Part shown: positions 6,495 to 22,049 of the stretch, one piece after another
How the letters are laid out: every line of letters begins with the position of its first letter
Position numbering within the stretch: position 1 is the first letter of the stretch
Made by a program: the position numbers and the translations under genes
Notes under the pieces: generated by a model
What the model was told of the DNA's origin: nothing
The model's input: only the letters and a program-made list of their open reading frames with translations
Database searches by the model: none
Assembly (NCBI GenBank): GCA_021738105.1
Contig: JAIPCS010000026.1
Coordinates: 1 to 22,158 of the forward strand
Origin: Sulfuritalea sp.
Lineage (GTDB): Bacteria > Pseudomonadota > Gammaproteobacteria > Burkholderiales > Rhodocyclaceae
Direction of reading: 5' to 3'
Length of the DNA: 22,158 nucleotides

Positions 6495-6512
6495 GGAAAC
6501 ACTGAATAAGCC

Positions 6513-6579
6513 GTCACACCGGCGAAAGCCGGTGTCCAGTGTCTTGATTCTTCTGGATTCCGGCTTTCGCCGGAATGAC
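6513..6579. repeat. REP-like paired-hairpin element (imperfect inverted repeat)
   Basis: Two 27-base halves in opposite orientation, 6513-6539 and 6553-6579, are separated by 13 bases. Each half is an 8-bp GC-rich hairpin with a 4-base loop: ACACCGGC-GAAA-GCCGGTGT at 6516-6535, and ATTCCGGC-TTTC-GCCGGAAT at 6557-6576, which reads GAAA on the other strand. Outer ends are GTCA and TGAC, and inner ends are TCCAG and CTGGA. The core resembles the interspersed GTCATTCC...GGAATCCAG palindromes common in betaproteobacterial genomes. It lies between two plus-strand genes and may attenuate transcription. Confidence 0.75.
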
Positions 6580-6629
6580 GAATTTGGACTTGATAAACAT
6601 TTCCTCGGCTCTTTTACAGGAGAAGTACG

Positions 6630-7738: not shown

Positions 7739-10333
7739 ATGCGTATCGACAAATTCACGACCAAGTTCCAGCAGGCGCTGGCCGATGCCCAGAGTCTGGC
7801 GGTGGGCAACGATCAGCAGTTCATCGAACCGCAGCACCTGCTGTTGGCGCTGCTCAACCAGGATGACGGCAGCACCACATCCTTGCTGGCGCGCGCCGGG
7901 GTCAATGCCGGCGGGCTGAAGGTGCAACTGGCCAAGGCGCTGGAGCGCATGCCCAAGGTGGAGGGCCACGGCGGCGATGTCAGCATCGGCCGCGATTTGT
8001 CCAATTTGCTCAACATTACCGACAAGGAAGCGCAGAAAGCCGGCGACCAGTTCATCGCCTCGGAGATGTTTTTGCTGGCGCTGACTCAGGACAAAGGCGA
8101 ATGCGGTCGATTGCTGAAAGAGGCCGGATTGAATCGCAAGGCGCTGGAAGAGGCACTGACAGCGGTGCGCGGCGGCGAGAATGTCGATTCACAGGACGCC
8201 GAAGGCCAGCGCGAGGCGCTCAACAAGTATTGCCTCGATCTTACCGAGCGCGCCCGGCAGGGCAAGCTGGACCCGGTGATCGGGCGCGACGACGAGATTC
8301 GCCGCAGCATCCAGATCCTGCAACGCCGCACCAAGAACAACCCGGTGCTGATCGGCGAACCCGGTGTTGGAAAAACAGCGATTGTTGAGGGGCTGGCGCA
8401 GCGCATCGTCAATGGCGAGGTGCCCGAGACGCTGAAAAACAAGCGTGTGCTGGTGCTCGACATGGCCGGCCTGCTGGCCGGTGCCAAGTATCGCGGCGAG
8501 TTCGAGGAACGCTTGAAGGCGGTGCTGAAAGAGGTGGCGCAGGACGAAGGCCGCATCATTCTCTTCATCGACGAAATGCACACCATGGTGGGTGCCGGCA
8601 AGGCCGAGGGGGCCATTGATGCCGGAAATATGCTCAAGCCCGCTCTGGCGCGTGGCGAGCTGCATTGCATCGGGGCGACGACGCTCGACGAATACCGCAA
8701 GTACATCGAGAAGGATGCCGCGCTGGAGCGGCGTTTCCAGAAGGTGCAGGTGGATGAGCCGTCGGTTGAGGCGACCATTGCAATTCTGCGCGGCCTTCAG
8801 GAGCGGTACGAGGTGCACCACGGCGTGGACATTACCGACCCGGCCATCGTCGCGGCAGCAGAACTCTCGCACCGCTACATTACCGACCGCTTTTTGCCGG
8901 ACAAGGCCATCGACTTGATCGACGAGGCGGCGGCGCGCATCAAGATGGAAATCGATTCCAAGCCCGAGGTAATGGACAAGCTCGAGCGGCGCCTGATCCA
9001 GTTGAAGATCGAGAGCGAAGCGGTCAAGAAGGAAAAGGATGAGGCGTCGAAAAAGCGCCTGTTGCTGATCAAGGACGAGATCGACAAGCTCGAGCGCGAA
9101 TACGCCAACCTCGACGAGATCTGGCGCGCCGAGAAGGCGCAGCTGCAGGGCTCGACCCATATCAAGGAAGAGATCGAAAAGCTGCGCGTGGAAATGGCGG
9201 AGCTGCAGCGCAAGGGCGCCTTCGACAAACTCGCCGAACTGCAATACGGCACGCTGCCCAAGCTTGAGGAGCAGTTGAAGGCGGCGGATATGGTGAATGA
9301 AAAAATCGGCTCTGGCGAGACGGGTACGAATCGCTTGCTGCGCACCCAGGTCGGCGCCGAGGAAATCGCCGAAGTGGTGTCACGCGCCACCGGCATCCCG
9401 GTTTCCAAGATGATGCAGGGTGAGCGCGACAAGTTGCTCAAAATGGAAGACAAACTGCACGACCGGGTGGTTGGGCAGGACGAAGCGGTGCGCCTGGTGT
9501 CGGATGCCATCCGCCGTTCGCGCGCCGGCCTGTCAGAAGAAAGCCGGCCCTATGGTTCGTTCCTGTTTCTGGGGCCTACCGGAGTCGGCAAGACCGAACT
9601 GTGCAAGGCACTGGCCGAGTTCCTGTTCGATGCCGAAGACCATCTGATTCGCATCGATATGAGCGAGTTCATGGAGAAGCATTCCGTAGCGCGGCTGATC
9701 GGCGCGCCGCCGGGCTATGTCGGTTATGAGGAAGGCGGTCACCTTACCGAACAGGTACGACGCAAACCCTATTCCGTGATCCTGTTCGACGAAGTCGAGA
9801 AGGCCCACCCGGATGTGTTCAACGTGCTGCTGCAGGTACTCGACGACGGTCGCATGACCGACGGGCAGGGGCGCACCGTGGATTTCAAGAACACGGTGAT
9901 TGTCATGACCTCAAACCTGGGCAGCCAGATGATCCAGCAGATGTCGGGCTCGGACTACCAGGTGGTCAAGATGGCTGTGATGGGAGAGGTGAAGACGCAT
10001 TTCCGTCCGGAGTTTGTGAACCGCATCGACGAGATCGTGGTGTTCCATGCGCTGGACGAAAAGCACATCGCCGGCATTGCGCGCATCCAGTTGCAGTTCC
10101 TGGAAAAACGCATGGCGAAGCTGGACATGACGCTGGAGGTTACCGATGCCGCACTGGCGCAGATCGCCGAGGCGGGCTTCGATCCGGTATTCGGCGCCCG
10201 GCCCCTGAAGCGCGCGATTCAGGAGCGCATCGAGAACCCGCTGTCGCGCTTGATTCTCGATGGCACGGTCGGCGCCAAAGACCGTGTCAAGGTGGATGTC
10301 AGCAAGGGGCAACTCAGCTTCAAAAAGGCTTGA
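7739..10333 (+). CDS. clpB: ATP-dependent disaggregase ClpB (Hsp100)
   Basis: Hexameric AAA+ chaperone of the cytoplasm that, with DnaK, pulls polypeptides out of aggregates after heat stress. 864 residues, close to the usual length. Clp N-domain repeats span about 1-145. The first AAA+ domain has Walker A GEPGVGKT (206-213), pore loop [13 protein letters not shown] and the arginine-finger region ERRFQKV. The coiled-coil M-domain lies about 410-525, rich in Lys/Glu. The second AAA+ domain has Walker A GPTGVGKT (612-619), pore loop GYVGYEEGG and the C-terminal [10 protein letters not shown] motif. GAGG lies 8 bases before the ATG. It is transcribed from the sigma-32 promoter just upstream, and no terminator is seen between it and the toxin-antitoxin genes that follow. 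Confidence 0.98.
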
Positions 10334-10348
10334 AACCGGCACGGCTCG

Positions 10349-10379
10349 GGCGTAGTATAACAACCGTTATAACTACGCC
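10349..10379. promoter_or_regulatory. Palindromic operator of the toxin-antitoxin operon
   Basis: A 31-base dyad: GGCGTAGT (10349-10356) and ACTACGCC (10372-10379) as perfect outer arms, with ATAAC and GTTAT as inner arms around AACC and one unpaired A. TATAAC and TTATAA inside it can serve as -10 boxes. It lies 15 bases after the clpB stop and 10 bases before the antitoxin ATG, the expected place for autorepression by an AbrB-type antitoxin. Confidence 0.65.
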
Positions 10380-10389
10380 GGAGCCTGCC

Positions 10390-10614
10390 ATGCACGTCCT
10401 CAAACTCACCCAGATCGGTAATTCCGTCGGCGTCATCCTGCCCAAGGAGGTGCTCGCCAACTTGAAAGTTGAGAAAGGCGAGTCAGTTTTTTTAACTGAA
10501 ACGCCCGAAGGCTACGTTGTCACGCCCTATGACCCGGCGCTCGAAGAACAGATGACAGCCGGTCGTGATTTCATGCGCGAGTTTCGCGATACTTTTCACG
10601 CATTGGCCAAATGA
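10390..10614 (+). CDS. AbrB/MazE-family antitoxin
   Basis: 74 residues. The N-terminal half (about 1-45) reads as a swapped-hairpin AbrB/MazE DNA-binding fold: LKLTQIGNSVGVILPKEVL followed by LKVEKGESVFL. The C-terminal third is acidic and helical and would be the toxin-binding segment. The ATG at 10390 is preferred over an in-frame one at 10330 because GGAG lies 6 bases before it and the upstream codons run through the operator. The stop overlaps the toxin start in an ATGA, the usual coupling for such pairs. It probably represses its own promoter at the adjacent palindrome and neutralises the Doc-like protein. Confidence 0.85.
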   Translation: MHVLKLTQIGNSVGVILPKEVLANLKVEKGESVFLTETPEGYVVTPYDPALEEQMTAGRDFMREFRDTFHALAK

Positions 10615-11000
10615 ACTGGCGCTGGATCGACAAGCAGGCGCTGCTGCTCCTGCATGGCGAGAGCCTGGCCGAACACGGTGGCGCCGCGGGAATGCGTGAT
10701 GAAGGGTTGCTCGATTCCGTGCTGGCGCGTGCGAAGAACCATGCGGCCTATGGAGAGCCGGACGTGGCAGAGTTGGCGGCGGCCTATGGTTGCGGAATAT
10801 CACAGAATCATCCATTTGTTGATGGCAACAAGCGGGCCGCGTTTCTTTCTGTCGGTTTGTTCCTGGCGCTGAATGGCTATCGCCTCGTCGCGACTCAGGC
10901 GGAAGCGACTCTTGTGGTCCTGTCCCTCGCCGCCGGCGAACTCGAAGAAGCCGAGTTCGCCGCCTGGCTGCGCGAGCATCTGGTGCCGCGCAAGACCTGA
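10611..11000 (+). CDS. Doc/Fic-family toxin (death-on-curing type)
   Basis: 129 residues, the size of phage P1 Doc. The Fic core motif is HPFVDGNKRAAF with H67 as the catalytic His. The Lys-Arg after Asn (NKR rather than NGR) is the Doc arrangement, associated with phosphorylation of EF-Tu and translation arrest rather than AMPylation; applying that here is inference. The preceding region AGMRDEGLLDSVL and YGEPDVAELAAAYGCGI is also typical of Doc. No separate inhibitory helix is visible, so control must come from the antitoxin encoded just upstream, with which it shares a 4-base ATGA overlap. It ends 6 bases from a convergent gene. Confidence 0.88.
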   Translation: MNWRWIDKQALLLLHGESLAEHGGAAGMRDEGLLDSVLARAKNHAAYGEPDVAELAAAYGCGISQNHPFVDGNKRAAFLSVGLFLALNGYRLVATQAEATLVVLSLAAGELEEAEFAAWLREHLVPRKT

Positions 11001-11006
11001 ACACTG

Positions 11007-11732
11007 TCAGCCGCGTTGACCGTTGTTCCGGCTTCGCTGCGCGCCCATATGTCGACCGTTGTTTTGCTGCGAGTTGCCGAAGTGATTGCCACTGTTTTGC
11101 GAGCGGCCCGGCGCTTGCCAACTCACGTTGCGTGAGGGATTTGAGCGGGCTCCCGGAGCCTGCTGGCGATGCTCGCTGCGTACCTCACGCCGGTCTTGAC
11201 GGTGTTCGCTGCGGGCTTCACGCCTGTCCTGGCGATGCTCTACCCGTGAGCTTCTGTCGCTCCGATCCGAACGCCCGGCGTGCCGGTCCTGACGATGGTC
11301 CGTGCGGTTCTGGCGCAGGTCCTGCCGACGTTCCTGCTTATCCTGACGTAGCTCGGCTCTATCCTGTCGGCGTTCCTGCTTGTCTTGTTTCAACTCGGCC
11401 CGATCCTGGCGGATTTCCCGCTTGTCGTTGCGGATTTCCTTGCGTTCGTTGCGAACGCCGGCGATGTCGCCCTGGGCCTTGGCGCGCTGCAAGTCGGCGC
11501 GGTCGCCGGCCAGTTCGCGATAGTCGCGGCGGAGTTCTTGCTTGTCTTGCCGAACCTCACGATTATCCTGACGAATTTCGCGCCGGTCCTCGCGAATTTC
11601 ACGGTTGTCCTGACGTATTTCGCCACGCGGGTTCCGTTCGTCTGCGTCCTGGGCATGAGTCGTCGGCGCGAATACGGCCAGGGCGAGCAGAGAGGTGGCG
11701 ATCATGCTGAGTTGCCGGGTTTTTACGTTCAT
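11007..11732 (-). CDS. Secreted charged heptad-repeat protein, function unknown
   Basis: 241 residues. A signal peptide (about 1-27, charged start, hydrophobic core SLLALAVFA, THA before the likely cut) indicates export. The mature part is extremely rich in Arg, Asp, Gln and Glu. Seven-residue units of the form x-E-[ILVR]-R-x-D-x run from 37 to 78 and from 98 to 146, with Asp in the sixth place of every unit (D42 to D77, then D103 to D145). A 19-residue break separates the blocks. Two 11-residue units RQDRREARSEH and RQDRREVRSEH follow at 167-188, then a tail rich in Asn, Gln, Gly, Ser and Arg. With only one hydrophobic residue per heptad it may form a long charged helix rather than a buried coiled coil. 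AGGAG lies 6 bases before the ATG. I do not recognise a characterised family. Confidence 0.75.
   Translation of the reverse strand: MNVKTRQLSMIATSLLALAVFAPTTHAQDADERNPRGEIRQDNREIREDRREIRQDNREVRQDKQELRRDYRELAGDRADLQRAKAQGDIAGVRNERKEIRNDKREIRQDRAELKQDKQERRQDRAELRQDKQERRQDLRQNRTDHRQDRHAGRSDRSDRSSRVEHRQDRREARSEHRQDRREVRSEHRQQAPGARSNPSRNVSWQAPGRSQNSGNHFGNSQQNNGRHMGAQRSRNNGQRG
11295..11441 (-). repeat. Second heptad-repeat block of the secreted protein
   Basis: Codes for residues 98-146, seven consecutive 7-residue units (21 bases each) including near-identical copies of AELRQDK and QERRQDR. The period is exact and continues in phase through the block. Confidence 0.7.
11499..11624 (-). repeat. First heptad-repeat block of the secreted protein
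   Basis: Codes for residues 37-78, six consecutive 21-base units such as REIRQDN, REIREDR and REVRQDK. It is out of phase with the second block because of the 19-residue insert at 79-97. Confidence 0.7.
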
Positions 11733-14696: not shown

Positions 14697-17054
14697 TTAC
14701 TTGTTTGCCATCGTCCATACCCCGTCCCATTCTTTTGGCGGTGGTGAGTTGCGATAGATCTCGCAGCGTTCAAGATATATCCTGGACGGATTGTCCTGCG
14801 GATTACCCTTCAGCACCTGGCGAAAGCAGCGTTCGGCGCCGACCCAGTCGAGCTGGCGATAAAGTAGCAGACCTTCGTTAAAGGCACCCAGAACGTCCTG
14901 CAGATGCGGAAAGCTGTCTTCGGTGTGATGGTCAAGCGCCTCATAGATTGCCGTCGGCATGCTTCGGCCGCGCACCCGAATCAGATCAATTTCTCGCGCG
15001 ATCGAGTGGTCCTTGATGGCGGCGTAGGTTGCGTCGCAAACCAGGATCGAGGTGCCATAGAATTTGTTGGCACTTTCCAGGCGTTCGGCGAGGTTGACCC
15101 GGTCGCCAATCACGGTGTACTCCATGCGTTTCAGCGATCCAATATTTCCCGCCACCACATTGCCCGTGCTGATACCGACGCCGATCCGTATCACCTCGCC
15201 ACCGCGCGCGGCGCGGCGCTGATTGAGCTGGTGCAGGGCCGTCATCATCCGGTTGCCGACCAGAACGGCATTGCTGGCGTCGTCGTCACTTTGCATTACC
15301 GAGCCGAAGACGGCCATGATCATGTCGCCGATGTATTTGTCGAGCACACCGTTGTGGGCAAAAACGATGTCCACCATGTCGGTGAAGTATTCGTTGAGCA
15401 ATGCCACCGTATCCTTGGCGCCGAGGCGTTCGGAAATCGAGGTAAAGCCGCGAATGTCCGAAAACAACACACTGACGTCGCGCCCGGTGCCACCAAGAAC
15501 CGCCTCGCCGCTTTCGAGCAGCTGGTCTACCACGGTTTTGCTCATGTAGCGCGACATGGTGTTGCGCAGCCGCTTTTCGCGGGTAATGTCTTCCATCATC
15601 AACATGAAGCCGATGGGTTCGTTGCGGGTACTGGTCAGCGGCACCGTGGTGAGATTCACCGAGACAGCCTCAGTCCCTTCGACAAACAGATCGGTATCGA
15701 CCGTGGTGTCGGTATTGCCCGAGGCGCGCACTTTTTCCAGACTGTTGGCGACCCAGTTGTTGCGACCGATAAACCGGGTATCCAGTTTGTGCCCCAGTAA
15801 ATCCGCATCTTCGCGGCGCAGGATGCGTCGCGCCGATTCGTTTACCTTGCGTATTGTGCCGTTGACATCAAGCGTCAACACGGCGTTGTTCATGCTGTGC
15901 AGGATGGCTTCATTGTAGTTGCGTTCTTCCGTGACATCCTGAAAAAGCTGCGCATTTTCGATTGCGACGGCGGCCTGGGCCGAGAATGCGCGCAGGCGTC
16001 TTTCATCGGCGCTGCCGAACTCGCCTCCCTTGCGATTGAGAATCTGCATGACGCCAAGCTTGTGTTCGCCGTGGGCGACGATGGGCATGCAAAGAATGCT
16101 GTGGGTCCGGTAGCCTGTCTGGCGATCGAACTCCGGATTGAAGCGCGGGTCGTTGTAGGCGTCCGCGATGTTGATGACGGCGCCACTGCTGAAACATTCT
16201 CCGGCAATGCCGGCATTCGCCGGAAAACGAATCCCGGCGCCGGCAATGCCGCCGGCCACACGGGAAACCAGCTCGTCGGTTTTCGGGTCGTATAAAAACA
16301 GGCTGCCGCGGTCCGCGTCGAGCATGGTGGTGGCCGCCGACATGATCTTCGTCAATAGCGGGTCGAGATGGATTTCCGAAACGATGGAAATGCTGACTTC
16401 CAGCAGCATCGCCTCCTCGCGTTGCTGACGTTCCACTTTCTCGAACAGGCGCGCGTTTTCGAGCGCGGCCGAGGCCTGCAGCGACAAACCTTCCAGTAGC
16501 CGCTGATCTTCGCTGTCGAATTCTCCTGCAAGTTTGTTCAGGACCTGAGTGACACCAATGACATCGCGATTCTTGTTGCGGATCGGAACGCAAAGAATGT
16601 TGCGCGTCCTGAAACCCGTGCGCCGGTCAACTTCCTGGTTGAATCGCGGATCGGCGTAGGCGTTGGTAATGATCTCCGCCTGGCCGCTGGTGAATATCGA
16701 ACCGGCGACGCCCAGGTGACTCGGAAAGCGGATTTCGCCTATCGCGTCTCCCTGCACGACTCGTGAGAACAGCTCATTGGTCTCCGGGTCAAACAGGAAC
16801 AGCGAACTGCGCTCGGCATTCAAAGCCTCGGTGACGACCTCCATCAATCGCGGAAACAAGACATCCAGTGACAGACTGTCGGAGACGCGATTGGCGATGT
16901 CCGCCAGGGCCGAAGTACGGCGCAATAGTTCGGAAATACGGAAGAACAGCTGAGCCTTGCCTGACTCGTCAAGCCCTTGCAATAACCGCTCGATGTCCTC
17001 TTGATGCAGGCGGTGTTCGAGGATCTCGCGGATGGTTTCGAAGCCGATTTGCAT
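14697..17054 (-). CDS. GAF-GAF-PAS class III adenylyl cyclase
   Basis: Soluble sensor cyclase of 785 residues, predicted to make cAMP. GAF-A spans about 63-195, GAF-B about 230-365, PAS about 378-495, and the cyclase domain about 525-700. Metal-binding Asp are D533 (LFSDIRGFTS) and D577 (KYIGDMIMAVFG), 44 residues apart as in the family. K573 and T647 (EYTVIGD) are at the purine-selecting positions and favour ATP over GTP. Catalytic N654 and R658 (VNLAERLE) are present. The C-terminus has a TPR-like helical pair ending in IYLERCE. Both GAF domains carry a near-complete NKFDE motif (N173...D183-Q184; N340-R341...D350-E351). An ATG at 17054 is used; a TTG two codons earlier is possible. No Shine-Dalgarno sequence is clear. 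A minus-strand TACAAT at 17101-17096 could be its -10 box. Confidence 0.93.
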   Translation of the reverse strand: MQIGFETIREILEHRLHQEDIERLLQGLDESGKAQLFFRISELLRRTSALADIANRVSDSLSLDVLFPRLMEVVTEALNAERSSLFLFDPETNELFSRVVQGDAIGEIRFPSHLGVAGSIFTSGQAEIITNAYADPRFNQEVDRRTGFRTRNILCVPIRNKNRDVIGVTQVLNKLAGEFDSEDQRLLEGLSLQASAALENARLFEKVERQQREEAMLLEVSISIVSEIHLDPLLTKIMSAATTMLDADRGSLFLYDPKTDELVSRVAGGIAGAGIRFPANAGIAGECFSSGAVINIADAYNDPRFNPEFDRQTGYRTHSILCMPIVAHGEHKLGVMQILNRKGGEFGSADERRLRAFSAQAAVAIENAQLFQDVTEERNYNEAILHSMNNAVLTLDVNGTIRKVNESARRILRREDADLLGHKLDTRFIGRNNWVANSLEKVRASGNTDTTVDTDLFVEGTEAVSVNLTTVPLTSTRNEPIGFMLMMEDITREKRLRNTMSRYMSKTVVDQLLESGEAVLGGTGRDVSVLFSDIRGFTSISERLGAKDTVALLNEYFTDMVDIVFAHNGVLDKYIGDMIMAVFGSVMQSDDDASNAVLVGNRMMTALHQLNQRRAARGGEVIRIGVGISTGNVVAGNIGSLKRMEYTVIGDRVNLAERLESANKFYGTSILVCDATYAAIKDHSIAREIDLIRVRGRSMPTAIYEALDHHTEDSFPHLQDVLGAFNEGLLLYRQLDWVGAERCFRQVLKGNPQDNPSRIYLERCEIYRNSPPPKEWDGVWTMANK

Positions 17055-17169
17055 GCGCAATGTAAGCAGAAGGCCATATGGCAGAGGTGGCTTCTATTGT
17101 AACCAGATTCAGTATGCGCCTATTGGCGGAAATGCGCAGCCCGCTTGAGCTATCGGGCGACTGGGATTA

Positions 17170-17920: not shown

Positions 17921-20611
17921 CTAATTCAGTACCATCACGCCGCGCTTGAGGCCGTGGTCTTCGGGATGGGCGGAAAGGACAAAGCCCAGGCTGGCGACGA
18001 AAGCCAGCATGCGGCCATTCTCGGACAGGAAATCGCCATGCATGTAACGCAAACCACTATTGCGCGCCGTGTCGATCAGCAGTCCCATCAGGCGGCGTGC
18101 GAGCCCCTTGCCCTGCCAGTCGTCGGCAACGACGATGGCGAATTCGCAGGACTCTCCGTCGGGACTGGTGGCGTAACGTACAACGCCGACTTCTTTTTCC
18201 ACTCCTTCGCTATCGATCGTTGCGACGAAGGCCATTTCACGGTCGTAGTCAATTTGAGTCAGCCGTATCAATTGGGAGGGTGAAACTTCGCGGATGGTGT
18301 TCATGAAACGCATGTAGCGCGACTCGGGCGACAGTTCCTTGACGAATTCCTGTTCCATGCGGAAGTCTTCGGGTTTGATCGGACGAATGGTAACCACGTT
18401 GCCATCCTTGGCCTTGTAACTGGTCTGCAGGTGCGACGGGTAGGGATGGATCGCCATGTGGTCATAGCGGCCTGCGGTAATCGGCAGGTTTTCAATGGTG
18501 ATGCGTGCGTCGACGGCGACTGCACCGTTTTCATCAACAATCAGCGGATTGATATCCATTTCGCTGATCCACGGCAGTTCGCAGACCATGGCCGAAACCC
18601 GCAGCAGAACGGTTTCGATGGCCGCCATGTTGACTGGCGGCATGTTGCGGAACTCGCCAAGGCGTGCCGTGGTTCGCGTGGACGCCAGCATGTCGGCGAT
18701 CAGGATCGAGTTCAATGGCGGAAGCGCCACGGCGCGATCGCTATTGTATGCCTCGACATTGGTGCCACCCGGACCCAGAACGATAGTTGGACCGAAAATC
18801 TTGTCGCGCACCATGCCGACCATCAGTTCGCGGCCGTTGGCTTTCTGGATCATTGGTTCGATAGCAATACCGTTGATGTGTGCGTCGGGACGATTCCTTT
18901 TAACCTCGGCCATGATTTCCAGCCAGGTATCGCGGACGGCGGCGAGGCTGTTCAGATTCAGTCGCACACCTCCTGAGTCGCTCTTGTGCGTGATCTGGGC
19001 CGAATCGATCTTCATCACCACCGGCAGTCCGAGTTCTTCGGCGAGCACCATGGCCTCGGATGCCGATCGGGCGACCATGGTTTGAGCAATCGGAATCCGG
19101 AATGATGCCAGCAAGGCCTTCGATTCCATTTCGCTGAGTACCTTGCGTCCTTCCATCAGCGCAGTTTCGATGACCAGACGCGCCGATTCGAGGCGTGGCG
19201 GGGCTTGTTCCGAAATTGAGGGTGGCGTCTGCATCAGCAATTGCCGATTGCGATAGTAGTTGGAGACGTGCGAGAACAGATCAACCGCAGGCTCCGGCGT
19301 GCGGAACGTCGGAATGGCCGCACCCCGGAACAGTTTGCGCGCTTCACTCACTTGTTCCTCGCCCATCCAGCAGGTCACCAGAGGCTTGTCGCTGCGTCGC
19401 GCAATCTCGATCACCGTGCGCGCGGCCTGGGTCGGGTCGGTCATTGCCTGCGGTGTCAGGATCGCCATCACGCCATCAATGCCATCATCTTCGATACAGG
19501 CCTGAAGTGCCTGACCATAGCGCGTGGGATCGGCGTCGCCAAGAATATCGATCGGGTTGGATTTGGACCAGGTGGCGGGGAGACACTCATTGAGACGAGC
19601 GATGGTGGCAGGAGAAAGTTGCGCCAGCGGGATATCAATGTCAGCAGCATGATCGGCCGCCATGACGCCTGGGCCGCCACCGTTGGTAATGATTGCCAGC
19701 CGTTTGCCACGCGGCCGGAAGTGGGAAAACAGCGCCGATGCCGCCGCATACATCTGCCCGACATTGGCCAGACGTACCACGCCGGCCCGTCGCAGCGCTG
19801 CGTCAAACACATCGTCGGCCCCGACCAGTGCGCCGGTATGCGAGCGCACGGCCTTTTCGCCGGCAGGATGCTTGCCCACCTTGATCAGCAACACCGGCTT
19901 GCAGCGCGCAGCTGCGCGCAGGGCGCTCATGAAGCGGCGGGCGTTCTTGATGCCTTCGATGTAAAGGAAAATGTTTTCAGTACGCGGGTCTGAAACCATG
20001 TAATCAAGCACTTCGCCAAAGTCGATATCGCCCTCTGCGCCCAGCGAGACGACGTTGGAGAACCCGACCTTGTTCGGTAACGCCCAATCGAGAATTGCTG
20101 TGCACAGGGCGCCCGATTGAGAAATCAGGCCTATGGTTCCGGCATGAGCAAAGCCATGGCCGAAGGTCAGGTTGATCTGGCTGCCCGGTCGCATGATGCC
20201 CAGGCAGTTGGGGCCGAGCAGGCGCATGCCATGGCGGCGGGCGTTTTCCAGCGCATTGCGTTCCAGTGTTTTGCCGCGTCCTCCCACCTCGGAGAATCCT
20301 CCGGAAATGATGATGGCGTTTCGACAACCAGCGCGGCCGCAGGCATCGACGAGTTCGGGAACATTGTCTGCCTGGGTGCAGATCACTGCAATATCGAGTC
20401 GTTGCGGAATCGTATCTACCGATGGGTAGGTTTTCTGTCCAAATACCGTTTCATGCCTCGGATTGACAAAGAACAGCTTGCCCTTGTAGCCCGAGTCGAG
20501 CATGTTGCGAACCAGAGTGGAGCCGATCGAATTGGGTGTTTCCGAAGCCCCGACGATGGCAATCGATTCGGGTTCAAAAAGCGTGTGTAAATAATGTTGT
20601 TCGTTATGCAT
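17921..20611 (-). CDS. Pat-like fusion: NDP-forming acyl-CoA synthetase domains plus GNAT acetyltransferase
   Basis: 896 residues, cytoplasmic. A CoA-binding Rossmann domain (about 10-140, SIAIVGASETPNSIG) and succinyl-CoA-ligase-like domains come first. An ATP-grasp domain (about 480-690, PVVMKIDSAQITHKSDSGGV) and a C-terminal GNAT domain (about 725-896, EFAIVVADDWQGKGLARRLM) follow. This is the layout of E. coli PatZ/Salmonella Pat, which acetylate lysines on AMP-forming acetyl-CoA synthetase and other proteins. Unlike PatZ, where I recall Asn in the matching place, this protein keeps H258 in VRSHTGALVG, the His that is phosphorylated in true NDP-forming synthetases, so both activities may survive. 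The ATG at 20611 has GGAG 7 bases upstream; a TTG seven codons earlier lacks this. It is flanked on both sides by genes for adenylyl cyclases (tag intervenes on one side). Confidence 0.9.
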   Translation of the reverse strand: MHNEQHYLHTLFEPESIAIVGASETPNSIGSTLVRNMLDSGYKGKLFFVNPRHETVFGQKTYPSVDTIPQRLDIAVICTQADNVPELVDACGRAGCRNAIIISGGFSEVGGRGKTLERNALENARRHGMRLLGPNCLGIMRPGSQINLTFGHGFAHAGTIGLISQSGALCTAILDWALPNKVGFSNVVSLGAEGDIDFGEVLDYMVSDPRTENIFLYIEGIKNARRFMSALRAAARCKPVLLIKVGKHPAGEKAVRSHTGALVGADDVFDAALRRAGVVRLANVGQMYAAASALFSHFRPRGKRLAIITNGGGPGVMAADHAADIDIPLAQLSPATIARLNECLPATWSKSNPIDILGDADPTRYGQALQACIEDDGIDGVMAILTPQAMTDPTQAARTVIEIARRSDKPLVTCWMGEEQVSEARKLFRGAAIPTFRTPEPAVDLFSHVSNYYRNRQLLMQTPPSISEQAPPRLESARLVIETALMEGRKVLSEMESKALLASFRIPIAQTMVARSASEAMVLAEELGLPVVMKIDSAQITHKSDSGGVRLNLNSLAAVRDTWLEIMAEVKRNRPDAHINGIAIEPMIQKANGRELMVGMVRDKIFGPTIVLGPGGTNVEAYNSDRAVALPPLNSILIADMLASTRTTARLGEFRNMPPVNMAAIETVLLRVSAMVCELPWISEMDINPLIVDENGAVAVDARITIENLPITAGRYDHMAIHPYPSHLQTSYKAKDGNVVTIRPIKPEDFRMEQEFVKELSPESRYMRFMNTIREVSPSQLIRLTQIDYDREMAFVATIDSEGVEKEVGVVRYATSPDGESCEFAIVVADDWQGKGLARRLMGLLIDTARNSGLRYMHGDFLSENGRMLAFVASLGFVLSAHPEDHGLKRGVMVLN

Positions 20612-20652
20612 GGTGACGCTCCGCAGCGTCAATGGAAAGTTCCGTTAAAAAT

Positions 20653-20708: not shown

Positions 20709-22049
20709 TTAGAGCGGTGCTGGGTCGCTGCGCCGGCCAGATCGATAATGACCATAGTGGCGGTCGGCACTGAGTATGTGGTTGATTAACCAGCCAGTCA
20801 GGAATCGCTTGATGCGAAAGGCCAGATAGATGCGATTGTCTTCTCCGAGATCGATCTCGCGTCGCAACTCATCGAAATACTCAAAAAAGCGCTGGTGTTG
20901 TCGAATGTGCAAATCGCGAAACGGATATTCATCCTCCTGCATCAGGTCTTCCTCGATCCTGAAGCCGCGGGTAGCAGCCAGTTGAATCTGCTCCAGCAGC
21001 CGTGAGGTCAGATCGAAAGCACCTGAATTCACGGCCCTGGCAAGCACGTTCATTTCTGCCAGAAGTTTCTTGTTGGCTGCGTCTACCGCCGCTGGGCCGA
21101 AGGCATACTCTTCACTCCAAATGGTCGGCAGTTCTGCTCTCAGAGAGTCCAGGTCTTCGACCGGGCGCTCGCAGCGTTCGAGATATACACAGGCAGCGTC
21201 ATCGTCTGGCACAGTTTCAAGATAGGCTGTGAGTCGTTCGCGCGCGGTATGAATGTCGTCAATATGGTAATAGGCCAGTGCCTCTTCGAAGGTTTTCAGT
21301 GTGTCGGTTTTGGCATTTCTCAAAGAGGCTGGGTCGCTGTTAAAGACTTCATATACGGATTGAGTACCGCGTTTGCCGCGAACGTTAGTGCGGTCGAGAA
21401 AACGAATCGACCAGAGCTCCGGCTGTTCAAGGCAATACAGGGTGTACTCGCTGATCAGAATCGATACCTGGTAGTCCTTGGTCAGGCGCTCCAGACGCGC
21501 TGCCAGATTGACAGCGTCACCAATCACTGTTCCGTCCATGCGCGCGGCACCACCGATGGTGCCAAGAATGACGATACCGGTGTTGATGCCGATGCCGATC
21601 TTGATTGGGCGATAGCCTGCGCGCAATCTTCCGGCGTTGTAGTTTTCCAGCTTTTCGAGTATCGCCAGTGCGCAACGCAAGGCCGAATCCGGCGATTCAG
21701 GAAACAGAGCCATGATGCCGTCGCCGATGAACTTGTCGATAAAACCGCCATGCGCCGTAATGACCGGCTCCATATGAATCAGATAGGAATTGAGGAAATT
21801 GAAGTTTTCCTGAGGGCTCATCGACTCCGACAGCGCAGTGAAATTGCGGATATCGGCGAACAGAATGGTCATCTTGCGCTCGACCTGCTGCCCGATCACA
21901 ATCGTCCGGATGTCGTCTATGCCCATCAGGTGAAGAAACTCACGCGGCACAAAGCGGCTGTACGCTCGAATCGTTGCGTTCAGTCTTTCAAGCAAGACAT
22001 CTTTATCGTCTTGCTTGGCGCCAGCAATGCTGTTTGGGTCGGCGGGCAT
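20709..22049 (-). CDS. Adenylyl cyclase fused to a hemerythrin-like domain with a partly lost diiron site
   Basis: 446 residues, no membrane segment. The class III cyclase domain (about 55-235) has metal Asp D66 (ILFADIRNFT) and D110 (KFIGDGIMALF), purine-selecting K106 and T174 (DGTVIGD), and catalytic N181 and R185, so cAMP synthesis is predicted. A TPR-like helical pair (about 250-295) ending in VYLERCER matches the tail of the other cyclase nearby. Residues 311-435 follow the bacteriohemerythrin layout: W311, VDAAN at the first-helix IDxQH position, GFRIEEDLM at the HFxxEExxM position, YPFRDLHIRQHQRFF, and WLINHILSAD. Ligands E366, H381, H385, H424 and D429 are present at canonical spacing, but the first two His are N326 and G362. 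The domain may sense oxygen, redox state or iron in an altered way. The start codon has no clear Shine-Dalgarno sequence. Confidence 0.87.
   Translation of the reverse strand: MPADPNSIAGAKQDDKDVLLERLNATIRAYSRFVPREFLHLMGIDDIRTIVIGQQVERKMTILFADIRNFTALSESMSPQENFNFLNSYLIHMEPVITAHGGFIDKFIGDGIMALFPESPDSALRCALAILEKLENYNAGRLRAGYRPIKIGIGINTGIVILGTIGGAARMDGTVIGDAVNLAARLERLTKDYQVSILISEYTLYCLEQPELWSIRFLDRTNVRGKRGTQSVYEVFNSDPASLRNAKTDTLKTFEEALAYYHIDDIHTARERLTAYLETVPDDDAACVYLERCERPVEDLDSLRAELPTIWSEEYAFGPAAVDAANKKLLAEMNVLARAVNSGAFDLTSRLLEQIQLAATRGFRIEEDLMQEDEYPFRDLHIRQHQRFFEYFDELRREIDLGEDNRIYLAFRIKRFLTGWLINHILSADRHYGHYRSGRRSDPAPL

Follow-up and report, generated by a model that had tools for sequence, protein, structure and literature searches.

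What a hemerythrin domain can sense when half of its metal site has been taken apart, and why such a domain should sit on a nucleotide cyclase, is the question raised by one gene in a 22,158-nucleotide stretch of Sulfuritalea sp. DNA (contig JAIPCS010000026.1 of assembly GCA_021738105.1), which is referred to here as the window. Hemerythrin is the textbook diiron oxygen binder. The protein encoded in the window carries a hemerythrin-type domain from which both terminal histidines of the oxygen-binding iron have disappeared, and since many relatives show repeated dismantling of this half of the site, the domain probably no longer serves to bind oxygen. A preliminary description of the DNA had recognised a cyclase with a fused hemerythrin-like domain, and profile searches agree, as PF00211 and TIGR02481 both match within a single open reading frame of 446 residues (Table 1). 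Fusion to a functional domain is also a listed feature of bacterial hemerythrin sensors (PMC9388753) and is seen here in the union of cyclase and hemerythrin.

Table 1. Features of the cyclase-hemerythrin fusion gene and its downstream neighbour in the window
Feature	Position	Strand	Basis
Cyclase-hemerythrin fusion gene, 446 aa, ATG start	20709..22049	-	Open reading frame and profile matches
Class III nucleotide cyclase domain, residues 57-233	21351..21881	-	PF00211, E 2.3e-20
Linker with weak TPR-like match, residues 240-300	21150..21332	-	PF13371, below cut-off
Hemerythrin domain, residues 311-435	20745..21119	-	TIGR02481, 68.1 bits; 2avk
N326, codon AAC, position of first Fe2 His	21072..21074	-	
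G362, codon GGC, position of second Fe2 His	20964..20966	-	
E366, position of bridging Glu	20952..20954	-	
H381 and H385, Fe1 His pair, helix C	20895..20909	-	
H424 (third Fe1 His) and D429 (bridging Asp)	20763..20780	-	
PatZ-like acyl-CoA synthetase (NDP-forming) with C-terminal GNAT; immediate downstream neighbour of the fusion	17921..20632	-	

The score against TIGR02481, the NCBIfam hemerythrin domain, exceeds the family cut-off of 51.75 bits and places the domain within this family. Scores against two other profiles fall short, slightly so for PF01814 (22.2, cut-off 25.3) and also for NF033749 (68.4, cut-off 84), for which the full-ligand relative L006 also remains below the cut-off (74.7). 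The best sequence match among solved structures is the hemerythrin domain of DcrH (2avk), aligned over 130 residues with an E-value of 1.1e-10, and because of this value and the TIGR02481 score, the similarity is, on sequence grounds, not a chance one. The TPR-like match in the linker covers residues 253-286 and reaches 19.3 bits against a cut-off of 35. Class III adenylyl cyclases are characterised by two metal-binding aspartates, an asparagine/arginine pair, and a lysine with a threonine or aspartate that contact the adenine. The window protein displays this signature (metal Asp, Asn/Arg, Lys, Thr) in D66, K106, D110, T174, N181, and R185, which we take to be the catalytic residues, and its lysine/threonine pair presumably marks it as an adenylyl cyclase. 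A protein search with the hemerythrin part returned a close set of 69 proteins of 349-477 residues, including the query, all with PF00211 and several named Sulfuritalea or Rhodocyclales; D66 is found in 68 of them (one gap) and the other five residues in all 69. As the catalytic residues are intact, the window protein would be expected to make cAMP.

In hemerythrin, one iron (Fe1) is held by three histidines and the other (Fe2) by two, a glutamate and an aspartate bridge the pair, and O2 binds at Fe2, according to the available part of PMC9388753. Conserved iron ligands are listed in the same part of that source as a feature of bacterial hemerythrin sensors, and the window protein lacks it, as its ligand positions read N326, G362, E366, H381, H385, H424, and D429 (NGEHHHD; motif N-GxxxE-HxxxH-HxxxxD). 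Both terminal histidines of Fe2 are thus absent while the Fe1 set is complete. This one-sided loss had been claimed in the preliminary description, along with canonical and bacterial ligand spacing, and each residue and distance was found as described: 36 residues separate the first two positions, the Fe1 histidines lie at +15, +19, and +58 from the glutamate, and the aspartate follows the last histidine by five, spacings shared exactly by 179 of 236 aligned proteins. A misalignment of the second position was ruled out, as the aligned residue lies exactly four before the glutamate column in all 236 rows. The codons AAC at 326 and GGC at 362 are each one base from the His codon CAC and from GAC, the Asp codon of the family, respectively. 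Directly after the bridging aspartate, R430 and H431 (20757-20762) are invariant in the 69 close relatives, and DcrH has lysine at both positions. As a possible extra ligand, H431 is placed by rough helix geometry at the edge of the core.

Among the 69 close relatives, position 326 is occupied by histidine in 66, arginine in two, and asparagine in the query alone, while position 362 is Asp in 57, Val and Ala in three each, Gly, Ser, and Glu in two each, and His in none. Glu366 is found in 67 of these proteins, and H381, H385, H424, and D429 in all of them. From these counts, the feature comprises two parts, an older loss of the second Fe2 histidine that is shared by the family and a private loss of the first. 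The older change takes the form of Asp in the clade of the window and of Leu, Ser, Gln, Ile, Ala, or Cys elsewhere. The idea that asparagine and glycine represent a conserved and selected state, raised in the preliminary description together with a homologue check, is not supported by that check: N326 is confined to the query, G362 occurs in two of the 69, their combination is known from one sequence on one contig, and only the change at 362 is both older and shared. The same description had pointed to close homologues with full ligand sets as the sign of a one-off decay, and one such protein was found among those aligned (120 of 2955 matches were listed), namely P0079, which lies in the clade of the window, is 74% identical, and has His at 362. 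Another relative, P0137, combines Asn at the first position with loss of the second histidine, and the Rugosibacter aromaticivorans protein P0136 has the ligand set HAQHHHD. A search for stand-alone relatives of the hemerythrin domain gave three matches only: the second position is Asp in P0070 and in P0071, and P0072 is too short to cover it.

The wider family was assembled from the named genomes and two surrounding genome groups (90 of 92 and 70 of 82 full-length matches listed, plus further loci), giving 184 open frames and, without identical ones, 167 distinct fusions, whose counts describe related sequences and not independent observations. The first position is His in 157 fusions, Asn in five, Leu in three, and Arg and Ser in one each. 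The second is far more diverse, with His in 65, Leu in 28, Asp in 21, Ser in 13, Gln in 10, Ala and Ile in seven each, Cys in five, and other residues in 11. The Fe1 side is nearly frozen, as H381 is present in 165 fusions (Gln in two), H385 in all 167, H424 in 166 (one gap), and D429 in 166 (one Glu). The bridging glutamate is retained in 156 and replaced by Gln in eight, Val in two, and Met in one, and 10 of these 11 replacements occur without the second histidine. Asn at the first position is accompanied by loss of the second histidine in all five cases, while the three fusions with Leu at the first position keep it. No single pattern is commoner than the complete ligand set (58 of 167), which is also found inside the Asp-type and Gln-type groups, in P0079 and P0126. 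Genomes G005 and G386 have three fusions that differ at the second position (Asp, Gln, and His); a single genome can thus contain paralogues with full and with reduced ligand sets, L209 being a full-ligand paralogue of G005. Two distant fusions, L008 and L018, show the reverse loss, with both Fe2 histidines present and Gln at the first Fe1 histidine.

One helical turn upstream of the second position, a histidine at 358 (query numbering) may represent a re-sited ligand replacing the lost one. Among the Gallionellaceae-type members, 38 of the 51 that lack the second histidine have this residue, against three of the 19 that retain it, an association that comes down to only three to four independent contrasts and is not significant. 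The carriers are among L013-L016, L141-L170, and L231-L270, L231 has both histidines, and the window has Ala at this position.

To follow these changes, a main tree was built from cyclase and linker columns only, with 91 rows left from 145 after removal of five long-branch rows and near-duplicates. The minimum number of changes between canonical and non-canonical residues, which cannot separate loss from gain, is nine at the second position, seven at the first, and seven at the glutamate, against none at H381 and H385, one at H424 (a gapped row), and one at the aspartate. A larger FastTree of 145 of the 236 rows (short rows and near-duplicates with equal ligand pattern removed) gives nine and eight for the second and first positions. 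Counted as residue states on the 91-row tree, the second position changes 32 times and ranks 75th of 131 domain columns, about an average column, while the three Fe1 histidines change 0, 0, and 0 times and are tied first. By the same count, the first position and the glutamate change seven times each and the aspartate once. The Thiomargarita/Parabeggiatoa outgroup and several deep branches have the full ligand set. A careful tree of the window's clade gives Asp as the general state at 362 and places the window protein beside P0061 with a support of 91/91. P0061 carries Glu at 362 and Met at 366; it is a long branch, and its placement is less sure. The two have gone further than the rest in remodelling the Fe2 half.

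General decay of the hemerythrin domain was considered and rejected, as the window protein departs from the 51 domain columns that are at least 90% conserved only at H326N (comparison of 66 of the 69 proteins, three rows having been left out by hand). Of the one-off decay offered as an alternative in the preliminary description, decay of the domain as a whole is therefore discarded. Its claim of a selective change fared better in part: losses fall mainly on the Fe2 half, the Fe1 ligands are near invariant, and the remaining domain and cyclase residues are intact, while no selection for the asparagine and glycine themselves emerges from a family in which His326 predominates. Median dN/dS for Asp-type genes, taken over 122 of 190 pairs, is 0.26 in the hemerythrin part and 0.20 in the cyclase. 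For comparisons with the gene of the window itself no figure is given, as the synonymous sites of the hemerythrin part are near or past saturation there.

Other hemerythrin domains of the same genomes served as a control. From 70 loci in 19 genomes (30 returned, plus 40 taken as about every second further match listed), 59 domain matches were obtained, or 52 without seven short ones of another type. All 52 have the second histidine and 51 have the first (one gap), and the first helix C histidine is lost in four. A cyclase was looked for at loci with flanks or long open frames, and three domains (L097, L099, and L305) proved to be cyclase fusions; the remaining 49 have the second histidine in 49 and the first in 48 (one gap), with the first helix C histidine lost in three. 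A 2008 survey, in its available part, reports altered ligands in 58 of 327 bacterial hemerythrin sequences; of 71 alterations, 45 affect helix C, where the Fe1 pair lies, 10 affect helix A, and 11 affect helix B (PMC2556348). In the cyclase fusions, by contrast, losses lie mostly in helix B, then in helix A. Because the control keeps the second histidine throughout and the survey substitutions are mostly in helix C, ligand loss from helices A and B seems, within this sample, to be a particular feature of the cyclase fusions.

These observations lead us to propose, with about even confidence, that the domain is a one-iron sensor that retains Fe1 only, derived from a diiron one, probably responsive to redox state or metal, and controlling cAMP. 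What the sequences show directly is the ligand losses, their one-sidedness, and the constraint on the remainder; the details of the fold, the metal content, the signal, and the cAMP output are what we infer from them, as follows. The Fe2 half would have been dismantled stepwise, with the second histidine replaced by Asp in the window's clade and, on the window's own branch, the first by Asn and the Asp by Gly, while Fe1 keeps its three histidines along with Asp429 and Glu366. The usual O2 cycle appears unlikely, because O2 binds Fe2, whose two terminal histidines are missing, and a metal is arguably still bound, because the Fe1 histidines are strictly kept. The likeliest working state would be one non-heme iron, or another metal, on three histidines and one or two carboxylates, which could respond to redox state, to the supply of metal, or to a small ligand (NO, for instance) rather than bind O2 in a diiron manner. 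A change in redox state or ligand would then alter the bundle and pass through the linker to the cyclase dimer, so that the C-terminal hemerythrin-fold domain would regulate the cAMP output. The recurrence in distant fusions of Asn at the first position together with a lost second histidine is suggestive of this reading. Other points weigh against it: with the first Fe2 histidine so widely kept, most of the family may hold a second metal, the complete set is the commonest pattern, and the N326/G362 pair is private to one sequence. Even the Fe1 carboxylate shell seems incompletely frozen, given the fusions that have lost Glu366. More tentatively, and with somewhat less confidence than for the window itself, the Betaproteobacteria fusions as a whole may form a natural series in which the O2-binding half was removed repeatedly and the other frozen, yielding a mononuclear three-histidine/carboxylate sensor that controls cAMP.

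The main rival to this Fe1-only reading, for members with Asp362, is a family site that is still dinuclear, with Fe2 held by the first histidine, both bridging carboxylates, and Asp362, i.e., a four-histidine, three-carboxylate diiron site with a shifted redox potential. The window protein would then be a recent, weakened copy, its second metal perhaps bound through E366, D429, N326, and water. Carboxylates do replace histidines in other hemerythrin-fold proteins. In favour of this rival, the first histidine is kept in 157 of 167 fusions with only seven changes on the tree, Asp stands at 362 amid variable neighbouring residues in 57 of the 69 close relatives, and P0079 swaps this Asp back to His. 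However, the second position elsewhere holds Leu, Ile, Ala, or Ser, which would bind iron scarcely or not at all, although the first histidine is kept there, and the Gly and Asn of the window protein cannot replace two histidines. We therefore regard a dinuclear site as unlikely, while giving it more credit than the readings below. That the domain is metal-free or holds a purely structural metal, serving dimerisation or another contact while the cyclase is regulated otherwise, is improbable; a hemerythrin fold largely conserved outside the lost ligands and the loss of E366 in 11 of 167 fusions would fit it, but Fe1 histidines without a single residue change on the tree would be unexpected for such a role. 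About as improbable, finally, is a one-off decay or a sequencing or assembly error, in which N326 and G362 would be two single-base changes arisen by chance in one uncultured strain. Each codon does lie one base from the state of the family, and the allele is known from one contig. Against this reading, there is no frameshift or stop, H326N is the sole departure from the conserved columns, the sister P0061 changed the same half, and other lineages acquired Asn at the first position as well.

The RIC/YtfE and FBXL5 hemerythrin-like diiron domains have carboxylates at some histidine positions, yet they differ from the window protein in ligand pattern and in the lack of a cyclase, and none was among the structure matches listed. 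Class III cyclases such as 1wc0, one of those matches and presumably Spirulina CyaC, share the catalytic core and the lysine/threonine substrate residues, to which the window protein adds a hemerythrin-type domain after the core. The domain of the chemoreceptor DcrH (2avk, 2awy, and 2awc) has the same Fe1 ligand positions and is likewise a C-terminal sensor on a signalling protein, but it has histidine at both Fe2 positions in the alignment, its output is chemotaxis, and it binds O2 (PMC9388753, available part). As in the window, a hemerythrin domain is fused to a second-messenger enzyme in Bhr-DGC of Vibrio cholerae and Bhr-HD-GYP of Ferrovum, whose activity is set by redox state (PMC9388753, PMC8846402, available parts); these differ in using c-di-GMP instead of cAMP, in an N-terminal sensor, and in a complete ligand set. 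The hemerythrin fusions reviewed in the available parts of PMC9388753, PMC4919030, and PMC2556348 concern chemotaxis, c-di-GMP, and a P-type ATPase. No description of a cyclase-hemerythrin fusion was found in the literature searched, which left subscription papers mostly outside and is thus weak evidence of novelty. Such a fusion would link non-heme iron sensing to cAMP, and a family with one iron site nearly frozen and the O2-binding one given up would illustrate the conversion of a gas-binding site into a different sensor. The family offers natural intermediates with seven, six, or five ligands, some of them paralogues in one genome. Whether redox sensing, in distinction to O2 binding, depends on Fe2 can now be addressed by direct experiment.

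The PatZ-like gene is a neighbour of the fusion and no part of the sensor. Its open reading frame as listed starts 76 nt after the fusion, and the ATG used by relatives lies 97 nt after it. Where 400 nt or more of sequence follow the fusion (65 loci), a PatZ-like protein or a lone GNAT-like stretch begins on the same strand between -22 and +140 nt of the fusion stop in 29 cases, a hint that cAMP and protein acetylation may be connected. The order of fusion, PatZ-like gene, 3-methyladenine glycosylase, GAF-PAS cyclase, and AMP-ligase recurs in L002 and L315. In L311, L312, and L313, a second, full-ligand cyclase-hemerythrin fusion lies beside the PatZ-like gene and is followed by a hemerythrin-GGDEF protein (identified by Pfam in L311 and L313, and by a near-identical open reading frame in L312), and this insert sits between the PatZ-like gene and the GAF-type cyclase, where the window has the 3-methyladenine glycosylase. 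The window itself encodes a second class III cyclase of 787 residues with a GAF-GAF-PAS-cyclase layout (14697-17060), the tail of which resembles, by eye, the linker of the fusion. Inspection by eye also revealed words like GFRRNDE and FRRKPESR in translations of both strands at ~6500-6620, presumably of the sort seen in small dispersed repeats, as well as overlapping small genes resembling an AbrB-type antitoxin and a Doc-like toxin at 10330-11000. Beside these, 11007-11732 encodes a protein that, after a signal-peptide-like start, appears by eye to consist largely of RQDRREIRQD-like repeats.
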